Below are positions 55,192 to 64,000 of a stretch of 64,000 bases of DNA, one piece after another (position 1 is the first letter of the stretch; every line of letters begins with the position of its first letter). The notes beneath the pieces are model-generated. The model saw only the letters and a list, made by a program, of their open reading frames with translations. It searched no databases and was not told the origin of the DNA. Source of the DNA: Fuscovulum ytuae (lineage in GTDB: Bacteria; Pseudomonadota; Alphaproteobacteria; Rhodobacterales; Rhodobacteraceae); assembly GCF_029953595.1 (NCBI RefSeq), contig NZ_CP124535.1:2897001-2961000 (forward strand), in the 5' to 3' direction. A program made the translations under genes and the position numbers.

Positions 55192-55664
55192 TCTTGCCGA
55201 ATCTGTTTCACGCAGTAAGAGGATTTTGGCTGTCAAGTGGGCAGTGGCGTCGTCAGAACACTATGCTTTATGTTATCGAATTGAATTCACGGTAAGGTTT
55301 GGTGCCGATCTTGGCCGTTCGAGGCAGGCACGCGTCACGAGTGTGAAATGTCAATTGCACTTGGAAAGACGTCGTTCAACATGAGCTTAAAGAACCGCGA
55401 CGAGGATGTCGTCGATATAGGTGAGTTATTTTCAGCCATCCGGGCGCGTCTTTGGATCGCCGCACTTTTTGCGATCTGCGGGATCGTGTTCGGGATGACA
55501 GTCAATCGGGAACCGGTTTTTCAGGCACGAGCTGTATTTCAGCACTTCGACGCCTTTAGCCAAAGCAAGGTTGCCGTTGGAGGCCAATTTATCGAGCAAA
55601 TGAACGGCACGGTCTTTATCGATCAAGTTCATGATGCGCTATCTGACGCCGCCTTGTCTGAATG

Positions 55665-57326
55665 GGGCCGAGGCTGTATGGAAACTCGGTGGTGACGTTG
55701 GTCGCATAGGCGATCGGAGCATTTCCGGGGATCAGGTTCGCAATGAGCGCACATCGCGTTCACCACGCCTCTGGGGGATCTGACGGTTTCCGGTCGGCCC
55801 GATGTAGCTCAAGATGATGTAGATCAGCCCTGCATGGCCCGCATCAGCCCCCTGACGCCGAGCAGGGCGACCATTCGCTTGATGTTGTAGGCCAGCACGT
55901 TCAGCGCCATCTCGCTGCGGACGTTCTTCAGCCTGCGTGTCAGGAAATGGGTGCTGCCCATCCATGCCTTTATCGTGCCGAACGGGTGTTCGACCGTGCA
56001 GCGGCGGAGGGTCATGTAGTCTGGGTCGCGTCCCAGACGGCTCTCCATGTCGTCGACCAAATCTTCCCGCTCCCAGCGCGAAATCCGCCGCTCGTTGCCG
56101 GTCGTGCAATTGGTCCGGAGCGGGCAGGTCTTGCATCCGTTGATCCAATATCGCCGGATCGGGATGCCACGCTCCTCGGTCGTGTAGCGGTAGGTCAGGT
56201 CTTCGCCTGCAGGGCAGACATAGACATCCCGTTTGGTGTCGTAGACGAAGTCCGCCTTCACATACATGCCCTTGGCCGCATTGCCCGAGGTCGCGGGCCG
56301 TGGCACGGTCGTGGTGATGCCTGCCTCATGACAGGCCAGGATCTCGGGGCTGCTGAAATAGCCCTTGTCGGCGATGGCATGGAGCTTGTCCCGCCCAAGG
56401 GCGGCCTTGGCCGCGATGGCCATCGGGCTGAGCTGTTCGCGGTCGAAGCCCTGATTGGTGACCTCATGCGCGATGATGAGATGGGTCTCGGCATCGACTG
56501 CACTCTGCACGTTGTAGCCGACCATCCCGCTGTTCCGCGCGCTGGTCGCCATCGCGCGGGCGTCGGGGTCAGTCAGGGAAATCTGGCCATCCGGTGCGGC
56601 GGCCAAAGCCTTGTCCACCTCCCTGAGGCGCGCGATCTCCTGCCGGATGCGGCCATAGCGGCGGGACAGATGCTCGACCTTTCCGCCCCTTGCCTCGCCT
56701 TCCTCCTGCCGGTCGATGCGGACCATCTCGGTGATGTAACGTTCGACATCGGCTTCGAGATGGGCGATGCGGCTGGCGATCTTGCCCTTTGTGAAGTTCC
56801 TGTCGCGGTTGTTCACGGCCCTGAACTTGCTGCCGTCGATGGCGACGCAATCGCCCTTCAGGGTGCCAATCCGGCGGCAGAGCTCGACGAACTGCGCGCA
56901 GACCTTGCGGATGCCCGCGCCGTTGTCGCGCCGGAAATCCGCAATGGTCTTGTGATCCGGTACCAGCTTGCCGGTCAGCCACATGACCTCGACATTGCGC
57001 CCTGCCTCGCGCTCCAACCTGCGGCTCGACGGGATGCGGTTCAGGTATCCATAGATGAACAGCTTGAGCAGCATTGCTGGGTGATAGCCGGGCCGTCCAG
57101 TCCGTGCGGCGGCAGAGCGAACGAAACCGAGACGTTGCAGATCCAGTTCTTCGACGAAGAAATCCACGACGCGAACGAGGCTGTCCTCACCGATCCAGTC
57201 GTCCAGACGGTCCGGGAAAAGCACCGACTGGCCACGATCAACACCCTCGATGAAACCCGCCATGCCCGCCTCCGCCTGACCTGCGGAAGTCTACCACACA
57301 GAGCAGTTTCCACACAGCCTCGGCCC
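55665..57326 (-). mobile_element. IS1182-family insertion sequence
   Basis: The ends are imperfect inverted repeats: left GGGCCGAGGCTGTATGGAAA and right (reverse complement) GGGCCGAGGCTGTGTGGAAA. They bound about 1.66 kb with one transposase gene on the minus strand. The wzz-like reading frame is cut on the left and taken up on the right. Exact ends are uncertain by a few bases, and no target duplication could be seen. The transposase looks intact, so insertion may be recent. Confidence 0.85.
55824..57263 (-). CDS. IS1182 family transposase
   Basis: This 479-residue transposase begins MAGFIEGVDRGQSVLFPDRLDDWI. The DUF772-type N-terminal domain has RTGRPGYHPAMLLKLFIYGYLNRIPSSRRLEREA. The DDE catalytic part has CVAIDGSKFRAVNNRDRN (first Asp), HAIADKGYFSSPEIL (second Asp) and RRCTVEHPFGTIKAWMG (Glu). 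The four-Cys segment VCPAGEDL...CKTCPLRTNC typical of IS1182 lies between. No frameshift or stop is seen. Confidence 0.94.
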   Translation of the reverse strand: MAGFIEGVDRGQSVLFPDRLDDWIGEDSLVRVVDFFVEELDLQRLGFVRSAAARTGRPGYHPAMLLKLFIYGYLNRIPSSRRLEREAGRNVEVMWLTGKLVPDHKTIADFRRDNGAGIRKVCAQFVELCRRIGTLKGDCVAIDGSKFRAVNNRDRNFTKGKIASRIAHLEADVERYITEMVRIDRQEEGEARGGKVEHLSRRYGRIRQEIARLREVDKALAAAPDGQISLTDPDARAMATSARNSGMVGYNVQSAVDAETHLIIAHEVTNQGFDREQLSPMAIAAKAALGRDKLHAIADKGYFSSPEILACHEAGITTTVPRPATSGNAAKGMYVKADFVYDTKRDVYVCPAGEDLTYRYTTEERGIPIRRYWINGCKTCPLRTNCTTGNERRISRWEREDLVDDMESRLGRDPDYMTLRRCTVEHPFGTIKAWMGSTHFLTRRLKNVRSEMALNVLAYNIKRMVALLGVRGLMRAMQG

Positions 57327-58555
57327 AAACCTTGCCCCGCAGGATCGTATGGCCGAACGGGATATGTTTCGATCCGTTTTCTGGCAATCCGTCCGGTTTT
57401 CCCGAACGACGGATGAATTGATTGATATCGTGGCAACGCATCCATCCGGAGTATTCGCGGCAGAATTGGCAAATGTGACGGCGCAAACGGCCATCAGGGT
57501 GCTTGCAGGATCGCAAGATGATCTTGCTATCGCTTGGGTTGCCAAAGCCAGCGCCGAAATTGCAGAAGCAGCAATTCAGCGAGACAGGGCACAATCGGCA
57601 CTGAACGATGCGCTTCGAGAGGGTAAGAACGACCGCGTGGTTGAAGCACGCGAAAGGGACCATGCCCTCGCGCGCGCTCGGCACGATCTTCTTGTTCAGA
57701 CCTACGGAGTTGAGGCGAAAGCCTTGATGGTAAACGCGCGCCCTGTCTTGACGATGGTGCAAGAGGCAAGCGTTCCAGCCGAACCTATCCCGATGGGGCT
57801 TGCGCCATCTGTCGTCTTTGGGTCCCTCGGACTTGTCTTTGGCACGTTGCTTTCCGGGTTGATGGGAGTAGCGTCGGGGCGCATATATGCGGCGCAGACG
57901 ATGCGACGTCTTGCCGATGCAACAGTGAATGCAGAACAGGAAGCGCAGGACGAAGGGGCAGAAAGGGCGCCCGGTTCATCTGCTGGCTATCGCATTGCTG
58001 AACCGGCCGCGACTGAGATCATGGTGACTTATCGGGATAGAGCCACGAACTTGGCCGTTGTTATTGCGACGGATAAGGCAATTTCCGCCCTACCTGCAGG
58101 TCTTTGGCTGGCGAGACGCGCGTCAGCGGATGACAAAGGGTCAATCATCATAGCGTTTGGCCATCGCATCGAGGGTGAAAGGCAAGGAGCAACCGGGACA
58201 GTTGAAGGCGAAAGCGGAGTATTTTCGGTGACCCGAATGTCCAACGCGACAGAGGTTCTTTGTCCTACGAACGCGTTCGACTTCAGCCTGCACATTGATG
58301 AGATCATGAAAGGCCATCGGTCTAAGGCACCTGAACAAGTAATTATTTGCTGTACTGCTGAATGGGCCGGCCCCGTTCTGCGCGGGTTGGCGACACGGGC
58401 ACCCTTTGTTATTGCCGTTACAGAATTGGGACGAACAAAGCGATCTACTCTTGAAGCGCTGCGTCGCGTGGCTGCGCTGGACGCGATCATTCTTCAACGA
58501 TCTTCCGGCCGAAGGGCTTTTCGCATCTTTCGGACAGGGCGACAGTAAGAGGACG

Positions 58556-58794: not shown

Positions 58795-60273
58795 ATGGCG
58801 AACGCGAATTCTTCCGGTCGCGAGGACGATGTCGTAGACTTGTCCGAGCTTTTTCTGGCGATCTGGGCCAAGAGTTGGATTATTGGCCTGTGCGTGCTGC
58901 TGGGGGTAGGGTTTGGTTTCCGCGAACAGCCGGAAACAGTTTTCCAGACCCGCGCGGTCTTTGATCATTTTGATCCGATCACGAGCGCCACGGTTTCCAT
59001 CGGTGATCCTGTCGTCGAGCGATTGCTGGGATTCCAGTTCGTGGACAAGGTCTTTGCCACCATCCGCTCCGATATTCTTCCTGAACTTGTCGGAGAAAGC
59101 GCTTCGGATAGCGCGGCCGCGATGGCGGCGTTCCGTGATGTCTATCGAAAGGCGATCCGTATCTCTCGGACCTCGGCCGGGATGATCGAAGTGCTGGCAA
59201 CGCATCCTTTGGCACGGGCTGCGGCCGAACTGGCGAATGCGACAGCGCGCAAGGCGATGGACGAGCTGACGGCGGCGCGGGTGGACGAGGCATCCGATTG
59301 GATGAACCGTGCAACGGCAGCCATCGGAGAGGCCTCTCTGATCCGCGACACAGCGCTGACGGAACTAAGCACGGCCATCCGCGAGAATGCGGACGCAAGC
59401 TTGATCGACGCACGCAGGAGCGACCTTGCTATTGCGCGCGGACGGCATGACCTTTTGGTGGAGGCGTTCAACATCGACGCCCTTCTAGGGGTGTCCAAAC
59501 CTGTCCTGACCTTGGTGCAAGAGGCGAATGTGCCATTAAGTCCTGCCCCCAAGGGTGCGCCTGCTTGGGCCGTGTTTGGCGTGATGGGCCTTGTATTTGG
59601 GACGCTCTTGGCCGGCGTGCTTGGGGTTTCCTCTGGGCGCATTCATGCAGCGCGCACAATAGGACGCCTTGCGTCTGCCTCTGTTGAAGGGGGGCAAGAC
59701 ACCGGCGGCCGTGTCTTCGGCACTAACGGCCAATCGCGGGACGGGTATGCCATCACCGAACCGGACGCGACCGAGATCATGGTCGCGTTCCGCGCCAGGG
59801 GATCGGGTCTGGCCGTTTTGGTGGCGACCGATGCAGCCCTTTCATCCCTTCCTGCCGCGTTATGGATGGCCAACCGTGCTTCCATCGGCGGGCCGGGCGC
59901 TACCGTAATCGCCATTGGATTACCCTTGCCTAGCGAGGCGTCTACCTCGGTCGGGACGGCAATTCATGGCCATGGTACGCTACTGGTACATCGGCAAGCG
60001 GATGGGACCGAGGTGCAGTATCCGTCCGAAAGTTTCGACTTCAGCCTGCATTTCCGGGAAATTCTGGCGCAACGCGACAAGAATACCGCGGGGACTACTG
60101 GCCCCATGATCATCGCTTGCAGCGCGACATGGGCAGGTACTGTCCTGCGTGGAATGGACGGATATGTTCCTTTGGTCGTGGCTGTCACTGCTCCGGGTCG
60201 GACACGACGTTCGAACCTTGAAGACCTGCGCCGGATGGTTTCACTGGATGTGAACATCCTGCAGCGAGCGTGA
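58795..60273 (+). CDS. Wzz-like polysaccharide chain-length protein with kinase-like C-terminal domain
   Basis: This 492-residue inner-membrane protein has a Wzz domain: an acidic start DDVVDLSELFLAIWAK, helix 1 (about 28-44) and a periplasmic helical region with EVLATHPLARAAAELANATARKAMDEL. NVPLSPAPKGAPAWAVFGVMGLVFGTLLAGVLGV forms the Pro-rich end and helix 2 (about 255-277). The cytoplasmic tail (about 320-492) resembles the fold of BY-type tyrosine kinases (FDFSLHFREIL, VLRGMDGYVPLVVAVTAPGRTRRSNLEDLRRM) but lacks a Walker A loop. It controls glycan length or export. The preceding split gene is a paralogue. Confidence 0.82.
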   Translation: MANANSSGREDDVVDLSELFLAIWAKSWIIGLCVLLGVGFGFREQPETVFQTRAVFDHFDPITSATVSIGDPVVERLLGFQFVDKVFATIRSDILPELVGESASDSAAAMAAFRDVYRKAIRISRTSAGMIEVLATHPLARAAAELANATARKAMDELTAARVDEASDWMNRATAAIGEASLIRDTALTELSTAIRENADASLIDARRSDLAIARGRHDLLVEAFNIDALLGVSKPVLTLVQEANVPLSPAPKGAPAWAVFGVMGLVFGTLLAGVLGVSSGRIHAARTIGRLASASVEGGQDTGGRVFGTNGQSRDGYAITEPDATEIMVAFRARGSGLAVLVATDAALSSLPAALWMANRASIGGPGATVIAIGLPLPSEASTSVGTAIHGHGTLLVHRQADGTEVQYPSESFDFSLHFREILAQRDKNTAGTTGPMIIACSATWAGTVLRGMDGYVPLVVAVTAPGRTRRSNLEDLRRMVSLDVNILQRA

Positions 60274-60503: not shown

Positions 60504-61967
60504 ATGGAAACAGTTACGGCCAATACGACGATCCGCGAGGCAATGCGGGTGCTGGATCGGTCACAGACAAAACTTTGCGTGGCAACAGACACATCCGGAA
60601 AGGTCATACGCACCTTGACGGATGGTGATGTCCGCCGCGCCCTTTTGGGGGGTGCGACTTTAGACAGCCACATCGGCAACCTGCCCGGCAAAGAGCCAAT
60701 CACCTTTCCAGAGGGCACGCCGCGAGAACCACTTTTGCAGGCGATGCGGAGCCATTCCATCAATGCCGTGGTGATCGTCGACAAGGCCGGAGCCCCAGTG
60801 GATGTGATTGCACGCACGACACTGGAAAACCTAATCCTTCTATCGCCGCCGCATATGGGAACGGCGGAGGTCGTGTTTATTCAACAGGCCTTTGACGAGA
60901 ACTGGGTTGCTCCGGCGGGGCCGCATCTTGCCCGGTTCGAGGAAGGTCTGAAAGCCGTCAGCGGACGGCAGCACGCGCTGGCCCTATCATCGGGAAGCGC
61001 GGGTCTGCACCTGGCTTTGCGGGTTCTGGGCATTGGGGCCGGAGAACGTGTCTATGTATCAGATCTGACCTTCATCGCGTCCCTGCAGCCGATCCTCTAC
61101 GAAGGTGCGATACCTGTGCTGATCGATGCCGAGCCTGAGGGTTGGAACATGTCTCCCGTCGCACTTGGTCGAAAGTTAGAGATTGACGCGGTGCAAGGGC
61201 AGCTTCCCTCGGCGATTATTGTTGTGCATCTTTATGGCCAATCGGCCGATATGGATTCAATCGTGGCGCTGGCAGATCGCTATGGCGTGCCGATCATCGA
61301 GGATGCAGCCGAAAGCCTTGGCGCAACCTATCGCAATCGTCCAAGCGGAGCGCATGGCCTGCTGAGCGTCTTTTCCTTCAACGGCAACAAGATCATCACC
61401 ACATCGGGTGGTGGGGCGCTTGTTTCGGATCGTGGCGATTTGGTGGAGAAGGCGCGAAACCTGTCACAACAGGGGCGAGACACTGCTGAGCATTACCAGC
61501 ACAGCCAGATTGCCTATAATTATAGAATGTCGAACATTCTGGCCGGGATCGGAATTGCCCAATTGGGCCATCTTCCTGACCGAGTGGCGAGGCGTCGTGC
61601 TGTTTTCGCGCGGTATCAAGACGGGTTTCGTGACATTCCCGGCATCAGGTTTCAAGGCGACTTGGCGGGTGGCCATGGAACCCGCTGGTTGACCGTGATC
61701 GATCTAGACCCGGACCGGATCGCAAGGCACCCCTATCAATTCATGCGGCGGCTTCGGGCACATGGAATCGAAACACGCCCGGCATGGAAGCCGATGCATA
61801 TGCAGCCGCTTTGCCATGGAATGGAATTCGTGCCGCATGATCCTGTAATGGCGGTGTCACCGGGGCTTTTCCTGCGGTCGCTGTGCCTGCCTTCGGGGAG
61901 TTCTTTGTCGGTTGTGGATCAAGACCGGGTGATCGAAGCCGTGCGTCAGATCGTTTCAGAAGAATAG
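60504..61967 (+). CDS. CBS-domain / DegT-family aminotransferase fusion
   Basis: This 487-residue protein joins an N-terminal CBS pair (about 1-115: TTIREAMRVLDRSQTKLCVATDTSGKVIRTLTDGDVRRALL) to a DegT/DnrJ/EryC1/StrS sugar aminotransferase (about 118-487). The PLP Lys is Lys296 in SFNGNKIITTSGGGAL; ALALSSGSAGLHLALRVLG and PIIEDAAESLGATYRN are other PLP motifs. Such enzymes aminate keto-sugars for surface glycans, such as perosamine or bacillosamine. A CBS pair is known on sugar nucleotidyltransferases but unusual here; it may bind a nucleotide as a control. The asnB gene follows after 13 bases. Confidence 0.87.
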   Translation: METVTANTTIREAMRVLDRSQTKLCVATDTSGKVIRTLTDGDVRRALLGGATLDSHIGNLPGKEPITFPEGTPREPLLQAMRSHSINAVVIVDKAGAPVDVIARTTLENLILLSPPHMGTAEVVFIQQAFDENWVAPAGPHLARFEEGLKAVSGRQHALALSSGSAGLHLALRVLGIGAGERVYVSDLTFIASLQPILYEGAIPVLIDAEPEGWNMSPVALGRKLEIDAVQGQLPSAIIVVHLYGQSADMDSIVALADRYGVPIIEDAAESLGATYRNRPSGAHGLLSVFSFNGNKIITTSGGGALVSDRGDLVEKARNLSQQGRDTAEHYQHSQIAYNYRMSNILAGIGIAQLGHLPDRVARRRAVFARYQDGFRDIPGIRFQGDLAGGHGTRWLTVIDLDPDRIARHPYQFMRRLRAHGIETRPAWKPMHMQPLCHGMEFVPHDPVMAVSPGLFLRSLCLPSGSSLSVVDQDRVIEAVRQIVSEE

Positions 61968-61980
61968 GAAACTGGGCGGG

Positions 61981-63822
61981 ATGTGCGGAATTTTTGGACA
62001 GTTCAGTTTTGGGCGTGGGCCGGTCGATCCTTCAGTGATCCAATCCATGGCAGGCAGCATCCGTCATCGCGGCCCTGATGCAACGGGCTACCACGCGGAT
62101 GAGACGGCGGTGGTTGGCAATTGCCGACTGTCGATCCTTGATCTCAGCGAGGCAAGCAACCAACCGCTTGTTTCCGAGGATGGTAGGACCTTCGTCGTGC
62201 AGAACGGCGAGATCTTCAATTTTATCGAACTGCGCGAAGAGTTGCAGAAGCAGGGGCACAGGTTCCACACCACCGGGGATACCGAAGTTATCCTGCGCGC
62301 TTTCGAGGCTTGGGGGCCGGATTTCGTGACGCGGTTGAACGGCATGTTCGCGATCGCGGTATATGATGGCGCAGCTGGACGCCTGTACCTTTATCGTGAC
62401 CGTCTCGGGGTTAAGCCGCTGTTTATTGCCGGGGGGCCAAAGGACGGGCGTTTGTGGTTTGCTTCAGAGATCAAGGCGATCTTGAGAAATGGTCGGGATT
62501 ATGCGCCGAACATGTCGGCGCTGGCGCAATTTTTCGCGCTGAACTACGTGCCGCAGCCAGATACGATGTTTTCCGGGATTGCACATCTACCTCCCGGTCA
62601 CATGGCGCGGGTTGACGCGTCGGGCCTATCGATCACGCGTTATTGGGACCTTTCGAGGCTATCGGCTGAACCGGATATGTCACCGGCCGAGGCACAAGCG
62701 GGGCTATTGCGGTTGTTGGATGACGCAACGCGCATCAGGATGCGGTCGGATGCCCCCTTCGGCGCGTTCCTTTCGGGTGGGTTGGACAGCTCTTCCGTCG
62801 TGGGATTCATGAGCCTCTACAAACCCAGCGGCCTGCACACCTTCTCGGTTGGTTTCGACGATCCGCGTTTTGACGAAAGTGCCTATGCTTTGGACGCCGC
62901 TCGGCGCTTTGGCACGCTGCATGAACGAAACTTATCCGATCCGCAAAGCGCGTCGCTCTGGCCGCTTTTCATCTATCATTGCGACCAGCCGCATGGAGAC
63001 GTGTCCTTCATTCCGACCTTCCAAGTTTCCAGCGCGGCGGTGAAGCAAGTCAAAATGGTGTTGACCGGGGACGGCGGAGACGAACTGTTCGGCGGATACG
63101 AGAAGTATCTTCAGGTATTTCCCGGCGGCCGAACCGATCATCTAAAGGTCGGATGGGAGGATGCCTTTGTTCGTCAATCGGGTCTTTTGCAGGGGACTGA
63201 GGCGTCAGAACTATTGTCCGGAGCATTGGGTGAGGCCTTTGGGGATGACGATCCTTACCGCGCGCTCTCATCCGAGATTCGCAAAGTCGGACATATGGAC
63301 CCGATCAATCGTGTGCTCTTTGCCGAAACCGTCACGCTTTTGCCCGGCAACAACCTTGTGAAGCCGGATCGCATGGCGATGGCCAATTCATTGGAGGTGC
63401 GGTCGCCCTTTCTTGACTATCGTATGGCAGAGTTCGCCTTCACCGTTCCGGGTGAGATGAAGCTGAACGACGGCGAAACGAAATGGGTGATGAAGAAGGC
63501 TGTAGAGCCGCTTCTCGGGTCGGCCCTGACATGGCGTAAGAAGCAGATGTTCACCGTTCCGGTAGGTGAATGGTTCCGTCAGGCTCTGGCCGGAAGTTGT
63601 CGAGACATGTTGTTGAGCGGTCGGCTGGAAGCGCGGGGGATCGTCGACACGCACGTGGTGAAGGCGATGATCGACGCGCACGTGGTCGGGACCGCAAACT
63701 ACACGCGACAACTGAGGGCAATTTATTCCTTGGAATTGTGGTATCGGCTTTTCGTGGACCGTGATCCTGATTGGCTTGATCAGGCAAGATCACCCAATCC
63801 CGCCGAGGTGGGGTTCACCTGA
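61981..63822 (+). CDS. asnB: Asparagine synthase (glutamine-hydrolysing)
   Basis: This 613-residue enzyme has the N-terminal glutaminase domain with Cys2 (MCGIFGQFSFG) and RGPDATGYH, then the ATP pyrophosphatase loop FLSGGLDSSSVVGFMS near residue 265 and GDGGDELFGGYEKYL. Within a polysaccharide locus, AsnB-like proteins often amidate sugar acids or other carboxylates rather than make free asparagine, so the acceptor is uncertain. Its last base overlaps the ATG of the following aldolase gene. Confidence 0.92.
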   Translation: MCGIFGQFSFGRGPVDPSVIQSMAGSIRHRGPDATGYHADETAVVGNCRLSILDLSEASNQPLVSEDGRTFVVQNGEIFNFIELREELQKQGHRFHTTGDTEVILRAFEAWGPDFVTRLNGMFAIAVYDGAAGRLYLYRDRLGVKPLFIAGGPKDGRLWFASEIKAILRNGRDYAPNMSALAQFFALNYVPQPDTMFSGIAHLPPGHMARVDASGLSITRYWDLSRLSAEPDMSPAEAQAGLLRLLDDATRIRMRSDAPFGAFLSGGLDSSSVVGFMSLYKPSGLHTFSVGFDDPRFDESAYALDAARRFGTLHERNLSDPQSASLWPLFIYHCDQPHGDVSFIPTFQVSSAAVKQVKMVLTGDGGDELFGGYEKYLQVFPGGRTDHLKVGWEDAFVRQSGLLQGTEASELLSGALGEAFGDDDPYRALSSEIRKVGHMDPINRVLFAETVTLLPGNNLVKPDRMAMANSLEVRSPFLDYRMAEFAFTVPGEMKLNDGETKWVMKKAVEPLLGSALTWRKKQMFTVPVGEWFRQALAGSCRDMLLSGRLEARGIVDTHVVKAMIDAHVVGTANYTRQLRAIYSLELWYRLFVDRDPDWLDQARSPNPAEVGFT

Positions 63823-64000
63823 TGCAGTTCCTTATGATCGTGAACGATTCCGAGATCGCGCGATTTGTGGCGCAGAACGGGGTTGACCGTCTGTTTGTTG
63901 ATCTGGAGTGGATGGGAAAGGATAGCCGCCAGAAGGGGCTGGACACGTGGAAAAGCCGGCAAACGCCGGCCGATGTGTCGCGGTTGCGCGAGGCCGTACC
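63822..64000 (+). CDS. HpcH/HpaI aldolase family protein (partial, runs off the window)
   Basis: The first 59 residues start MQFLMIVNDSEIARFVAQNG, then VDRLFVDLEWMGKDSRQKG and a segment ending VSRLREAV, the opening of HpcH/HpaI or citrate-lyase-type aldolase barrels found in glycan loci. The ATG overlaps the asnB stop (TGATG), implying co-expression. Catalytic residues lie beyond the window, so the assignment rests on this start only. Confidence 0.65.
   Translation, partial: MQFLMIVNDSEIARFVAQNGVDRLFVDLEWMGKDSRQKGLDTWKSRQTPADVSRLREAV

Follow-up and report, generated by a model that had tools for sequence, protein, structure and literature searches.

We identified a single open reading frame in Fuscovulum ytuae in which a pair of CBS domains precedes a complete DegT-type aminotransferase, as the first gene of a putative operon for nonulosonic acid (NulO) synthesis. 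The gene lies near the end of the 64,000-nucleotide stretch of DNA that was analyzed (the window). We consider it reasonably likely that the protein carries out a LegC-like step under end-product control exerted through its CBS pair. An earlier note on this DNA had read the fusion as a control on amino-sugar synthesis; that remains the best interpretation, and the genomic context narrows the pathway to NulO synthesis.

The CBS pair and the aminotransferase occupy one uninterrupted frame of 487 codons (Table 1), as the earlier note had described. Family membership is clear for both parts: PF01041 (DegT_DnrJ_EryC1) scores 299.5 bits against a cut-off of 19.8 and the PLP lysine is present, and PF00571 (CBS) matches two stretches of the whole protein with 40 bits against a cut-off of 24. 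Scored singly in the genome, the first repeat reaches 27.6 bits, above that cut-off, and the second, from which the TxxD signature is absent, 20.9, below it. The note had assigned the N-terminal 115 residues to the CBS part, which is close, the boundary falling near residue 110. The kpsF model TIGR00393 also matches residues 3–98 (E 1.5e-8), under the model's own cut-off. An AlphaFold2 model of the whole protein has a mean pLDDT of 92.8, and the CBS part modeled alone (pLDDT 92.6) takes up a CBS fold with Z scores up to 16.3 against solved CBS pairs.

Table 1. Coordinates of the fusion gene, its parts and the genes that follow it (window positions unless locus L016 is given)
Feature	Position	Strand	Remarks
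CBS-DegT fusion gene	60504..61967	+	ATG start, 487 aa, no internal stop
CBS pair, residues 1-110, KdsD/NTase-like subfamily	60504..60833	+	Pfam CBS, fold match, CBS tree
TDGDVRR, residues 39-45, first CBS repeat	60618..60638	+	predicted ligand/phosphate loop
DegT/PglE-type PLP aminotransferase domain, residues 124-481	60873..61946	+	PF01041 E 5e-89
D267 of EDAAE motif	61302..61304	+	invariant in both alignments
K296, predicted PLP Schiff-base lysine	61389..61391	+	invariant in both alignments; aligns with PglE K184
asnB-type asparagine synthase/amidotransferase	61981..63822	+	13 nt downstream of fusion
HpcH/HpaI-like aldolase gene, start	63822..64000	+	runs past window end; L016 3823-4656
neuB	L016 4653-5708		after aldolase gene

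The aminotransferase part is entire and retains the active-site lysine, as had been proposed. K296 pairs with K184 of PglE, a position that is alanine in the K184A entry 4ztc, and D267 is presumably the aspartate that contacts the PLP pyridine. The nearest folds are a metagenomic sugar transaminase (7b0m), GDP-perosamine synthase (3bn1) and PglE (4ztc). PglE, the Campylobacter UDP-4-keto-6-deoxy-GlcNAc aminotransferase (4ztc, 1o61), resembles the fusion in fold and in its NGNK lysine motif, with 35–37% identity in the structure alignment. However, the solved PglE chains, of 386–394 residues, lack the CBS pair. The earlier note had asked whether many characterized proteins share this architecture, and as far as seen they do not: none of the 60 PDB sequence matches spans both parts, and a search of open-licence literature found no relevant paper on CBS-DegT proteins.

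The tight operon that begins with the fusion gene has the order CBS-DegT, asnB, aldolase, neuB, the last two overlapping at their ends. An asnB-type gene also adjoins the fusion in L018, L019, L022 and L231. Within approximately 29 kb there are genes for a NeuC-type epimerase, a MurJ-like flippase, a CMP-sugar synthetase, a PglD-like acetyltransferase and a PglF-like dehydratase, as well as a WbuX-type N-acetyl-sugar amidotransferase with HisH/HisF partners. NeuB exceeds the NCBIfam cut-off for N-acetylneuraminate synthase and NeuC that for the UDP-GlcNAc 2-epimerase NeuC_NnaA; the CMP-synthetase falls under the PseF cut-off and is assigned by Pfam PF02348, and PglD and PglF are called from similarity only. 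With NeuB, a NeuC-type epimerase, a CMP-synthetase, a dehydratase and an acetyltransferase in proximity, the locus has the gene set of a legionaminic-type NulO cluster. Following the known order of such pathways, we place the fusion at the LegC/PglE step of a putative UDP-linked legionaminic-type route. The product could be legionaminic acid, an epimer or an acetamidino form.

Judged from the same context (NeuB, NeuC, CMP-synthetase, PglD, PglF), the fusion would act at the step taken by LegC, the aminotransferase of the legionaminic pathway. The LegC model TIGR04181 gives it 325.5 bits, below the curated cut-off of 420, which is also not reached by a Legionella fusion (383.8) or by an unfused relative (374.9). 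The Plesiomonas legionaminic cluster lists PtmE, LegC, LegG and LegI, with a LegC of 382 residues that is too short for a fusion like this one (PMC4481668).

In the mechanism we propose, a PglF-like dehydratase would supply the 4-keto sugar, which the fusion would convert, as LegC and PglE do, to UDP-4-amino-4,6-dideoxy-GlcNAc; the route would run from PglF through CBS-DegT, PglD, NeuC and NeuB to the CMP-synthetase. A substrate and reaction of the LegC/PglE type are very probable. The CBS pair would act allosterically: binding of an effector at the first repeat (TDGDxRR) would alter the catalytic part, and amino-sugar would enter NulO synthesis only as required. A regulatory role of this kind for the CBS pair is probable.

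The same CBS subfamily occurs on several other enzymes. A profile of the fused CBS pairs, run against 299 Proteobacterial genomes, finds it on nucleotidyltransferases, DegT aminotransferases, GHMP kinases, NeuB and KdsD. The 49 non-KdsD matches typed by sequence comprise 43 nucleotidyltransferases, three DegT proteins, two GHMP kinases and one NeuB, in agreement with the earlier statement that such pairs mostly precede sugar nucleotidyltransferases. Those plasmid matches to the CBS part that have an annotated gene are DegT-type aminotransferases, nucleotidyltransferases, KpsF/GutQ isomerases and one hypothetical protein. Among the CBS sequences compared, [TS]DGDxRR is conserved in 27 of 28 DegT rows, 39 of 43 nucleotidyltransferase rows, 23 of 23 SIS/KdsD rows and both GHMP kinase rows; the NeuB carrier is L268. 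The motif in the first repeat and the tree grouping place the window CBS pair in this KdsD/nucleotidyltransferase-type subfamily.

KdsD, which belongs to the Kdo pathway, has the TDGDxRR motif in common with the fusion (KdsD/KpsF arabinose-5-phosphate isomerase, 3k2v, 3fna, 4o9k). However, its CBS pair is C-terminal, whereas that of the fusion is N-terminal, and KdsD-type genes do not stand near NeuB (0/87 among the matches listed, the 22 typed ones all being SIS). KdsD is likewise given two CBS domains in PMC10448790. The CBS-nucleotidyltransferases sampled here probably correspond to PtmE, given their resemblance; PtmE is also listed for Aliivibrio clusters in PMC7371886. The PtmE-type proteins of legionaminic loci carry a related CBS pair, mostly with NeuB in the same stretch. 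In their loci, however, the pair is on the nucleotidyltransferase, and where a DegT gene is present, in 11 of 17 stretches, it is unfused in all 11. CBS-nucleotidyltransferases and CBS-KdsD are already known kinds of protein.

NeuB is found in 59 of the 61 genomes with a non-KdsD form of the module compared with 54 of the 238 others (full tables), or in 58/61 compared with 45/238 when the listed NeuB places are counted. The two CBS genomes that lack NeuB, G787 and G829, are 78% and 76% complete. Among the matches listed, many of them on short contigs, 37 of 63 non-KdsD CBS genes lie within 12 kb of NeuB compared with none of 87 KdsD-type genes; the type of 49 of the 63 was assigned from sequence and that of the other 14 from score alone, and without the low-scoring G904, G922 and G700, added after inspection, the count is 34/60. 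A universal association of the module with NeuB was considered and dropped, as 45 of the 103 genomes with a listed NeuB lack the module.

A quick tree of NeuB proteins drew on 40 chosen genomes of these 45 without the module; sequences split by the aligner, one from these genomes and seven from CBS-nucleotidyltransferase loci, were removed. Its PseI-like clade of 36 rows holds none of the 34 NeuB from CBS loci compared with 35 of 39 from module-free genomes; five other NeuB rows, one inside the clade and four outside, are counted in neither figure. All six clade members sampled exceed the PseI cut-off. The four module-free NeuB outside the clade obtain their higher score as NeuB, which in one case exceeds the NeuB cut-off.

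CBS-DegT and CBS-nucleotidyltransferase genes never occur together, either in 29 CBS-DegT stretches of at least 7 kb (which include repeats, L100 and L230 being the same gene and L022 and L023 near-identical plasmids) or in 17 CBS-nucleotidyltransferase stretches. Among the CBS-profile matches of the window genome there is no CBS-nucleotidyltransferase; besides the fusion there are KdsD, the best match (5e-14), and weaker CBS proteins (next 6e-7). In 10 of the 12 fused genomes there is one further match, of KdsD-like ORF size. G865 has two, one typed as KdsD and the other an untyped 637-aa ORF, and G668 has two, one of them a 358-aa ORF near a second NeuB. G651 and G810 carry a CBS-nucleotidyltransferase and a CBS-GHMP kinase 15–23 kb apart, each near its own NeuB, and a count of one per locus therefore depends on how the locus is cut. 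The simplest account is end-product control, with the CBS module marking enzymes of CMP-ulosonate pathways, usually as one copy per NeuB. If upheld in a full survey, this pattern would be a useful general rule.

Several of these loci show further arrangements. L190 and L196 carry the pair on an HddA-like GHMP kinase (L190 by Pfam/NCBIfam, under the HddA cut-off), and in L257, a larger stretch of a CBS-GHMP kinase locus, NeuB and CMP-synthetase genes adjoin. A single ORF in L268 (6972-9305, minus strand) joins the CBS pair to NeuB with its SAF domain and a xylose-isomerase-like TIM barrel. In L269 (3494-5899) and in similar ORFs of L270, L271 and L273, NeuB follows a FAD-dependent amine-oxidase-like domain (Pfam on L269 only), with a CMP-synthetase-like gene downstream.

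Among the five PDB matches with inspected alignments, KdsD 4o9k gives the best single stretch to the CBS part (57.9 bits), and its title mentions a complex. We take the ligand in this structure to be CMP-Kdo, and a CMP-nonulosonate is therefore the leading candidate ligand for the fusion. By this analogy the likeliest effector would be the end product CMP-NulO, acting as feedback, although we give that particular ligand only about an even chance. More tentatively, with odds we would put a little short of even, the pair may be a portable module that senses CMP-ulosonic acids (CMP-Kdo, CMP-legionaminate and related compounds) and that became attached on separate occasions to five unrelated enzymes (KdsD, nucleotidyltransferase, DegT aminotransferase, GHMP kinase and NeuB) as one end-product gate per pathway. 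In the UDP route the gate would be on the LegC step because there is no dedicated nucleotidyltransferase there. A sensor found repeatedly on different enzymes within one pathway offers a direct route to its ligand, and also lets the gated enzyme be predicted for any given nonulosonic acid cluster.

Adenine nucleotides are common ligands of CBS pairs in general, and the high fold matches of the CBS part include pairs bound to SAM/MTA and to AMP. The pair could accordingly sense AMP/ATP or another general signal and tie surface-sugar synthesis to the energy state of the cell. We regard this as unlikely, since a general energy sensor should have little reason to follow NeuB-type NulO loci, to be absent from those of PseI type, or to have a motif in common with the Kdo-pathway enzyme KdsD. 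By the same analogy with KdsD, a CMP-sugar end product appears the likelier ligand, and the likeliest overall.

It is less likely still that the CBS pair has a structural or docking function, in oligomerization or in channelling to NeuC/NeuB, with no small-molecule effector. The second repeat without its signature fits such a role, and docking could also explain a module that moves between enzymes of one pathway. However, a pure scaffold need not keep the first-repeat motif, which is nearly invariant among the DegT and SIS proteins.

The genes that surround fused and unfused DegT proteins bear on the choice of substrate. NeuB, NeuC and CMP-synthetase genes adjoin 12 of 14 fused genes compared with none of 65 unfused relatives (Fisher test 1.8e-12, a value that ignores kinship) among the best 80 matches, for which the same flank was requested. 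This sample is biased to close relatives, many of its contigs are shorter than the requested flank, and a filter removed L101 from its 66 unfused loci. Restricting the comparison to stretches of at least 19 kb in the same sample gives 10/11 and 0/42. The 79 genes are not independent events because most of the 25 LegC-type fusions belong to a single lineage. Neighbors were sought with proteins of the window locus, L018, L019 and L021 (E 1e-8 or 1e-12 depending on the set), so that distant homologues may be missed. In the best 80 matches the unfused, PglE-like relatives mostly adjoin a sugar-phosphate transferase (49/65), PglD (34/65) or PglF (30/65), as in bacillosamine synthesis; one unfused locus, L102, has NeuB alone. 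The CBS pair also separates, in this sample, the aminotransferases of NulO clusters from near relatives in bacillosamine-like clusters that the same family models score alike.

The separate fusions L021, L025 and L227 also stand with NeuB, and L113 (seen in L234), an unfused tree neighbor of L014/L025, does not. The fused genes of L228–L231 have AsnB and/or HpcH beside them and NeuB was not found within reach; L228 and L231 end at contig ends, and L229 and L230, stretches of 17 kb, do not. NeuB is present somewhere in all 12 fused genomes tested. It is improbable that the enzyme has a different sugar substrate, such as a perosamine- or bacillosamine-type sugar destined for direct transfer, beside NulO genes that are neighbors only by operon assembly: GDP-perosamine synthase is as near in fold as PglE and L229 and L230 lack NeuB in their stretches, but the contrast between fused and unfused genes and the separate fusions with NeuB both argue against it.

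An architecture search of plasmids and of family, class, phylum and named-genome sets collected at least 28 distinct CBS-DegT proteins in Proteobacteria. Examples come from Roseovarius, Agrobacterium, Devosia, Ramlibacter, Methyloversatilis, Amphritea and Legionella worsleiensis; the nearest named relatives of the fusion protein are on Roseobacter-group plasmids. Identical architectures therefore exist, the idea of a unique fusion was dropped, and with 28 such ORFs the fusion is not a chance event. Of the 295 genomes in the family sample, 12 contain a match at E ≤1e-60, and in five of these 12 it is fused.

A quick DegT tree (28 fused and 99 unfused proteins) places 25 fused rows in one clade of 26 with support 83. 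L117 and L014/L025 fall outside this clade, and the starred branches cannot be reconciled with fewer than three label changes. The DegT label has to change four times on the CBS tree, which has few columns, and two of these changes are forced. Repeated origins of the fusion are therefore probable, and losses may have occurred as well. L098, which has no CBS pair, sits inside the fused clade at an open fork. L127, entered as unfused, shows part of a CBS signal (E 6e-4), and in G359 the second match extends over CBS columns in one search and has no CBS call in another; both may be degenerate fusions. An apparent extra N-terminal domain in the long ORFs of L026, L031 and L033 was rejected, as it seems to be the overlap, read out of frame, with a PglD-like gene upstream.

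L022 and L023 are NulO loci with the fusion, on plasmids of Roseovarius and Pseudohalocynthiibacter, and have most protein accessions in common over 29 kb. This sharing across two genera suggests recent transfer of the whole cluster. An IS110-family transposase gene lies inside the sugar locus downstream of the window (L016 11443-12462, minus strand). Within the window, a second transposase ORF (55824-57263, DDE/DUF772) lies on the opposite strand between two ORFs in the interval 55348-58548. By eye, the two flanking ORFs look like parts of the paralogue at 58795-60273, which itself has a weak Wzz match under the cut-off; the flanking ORF at 57349-58548 has no Pfam match. The layout is as if an insertion had split one copy of the paralogue.
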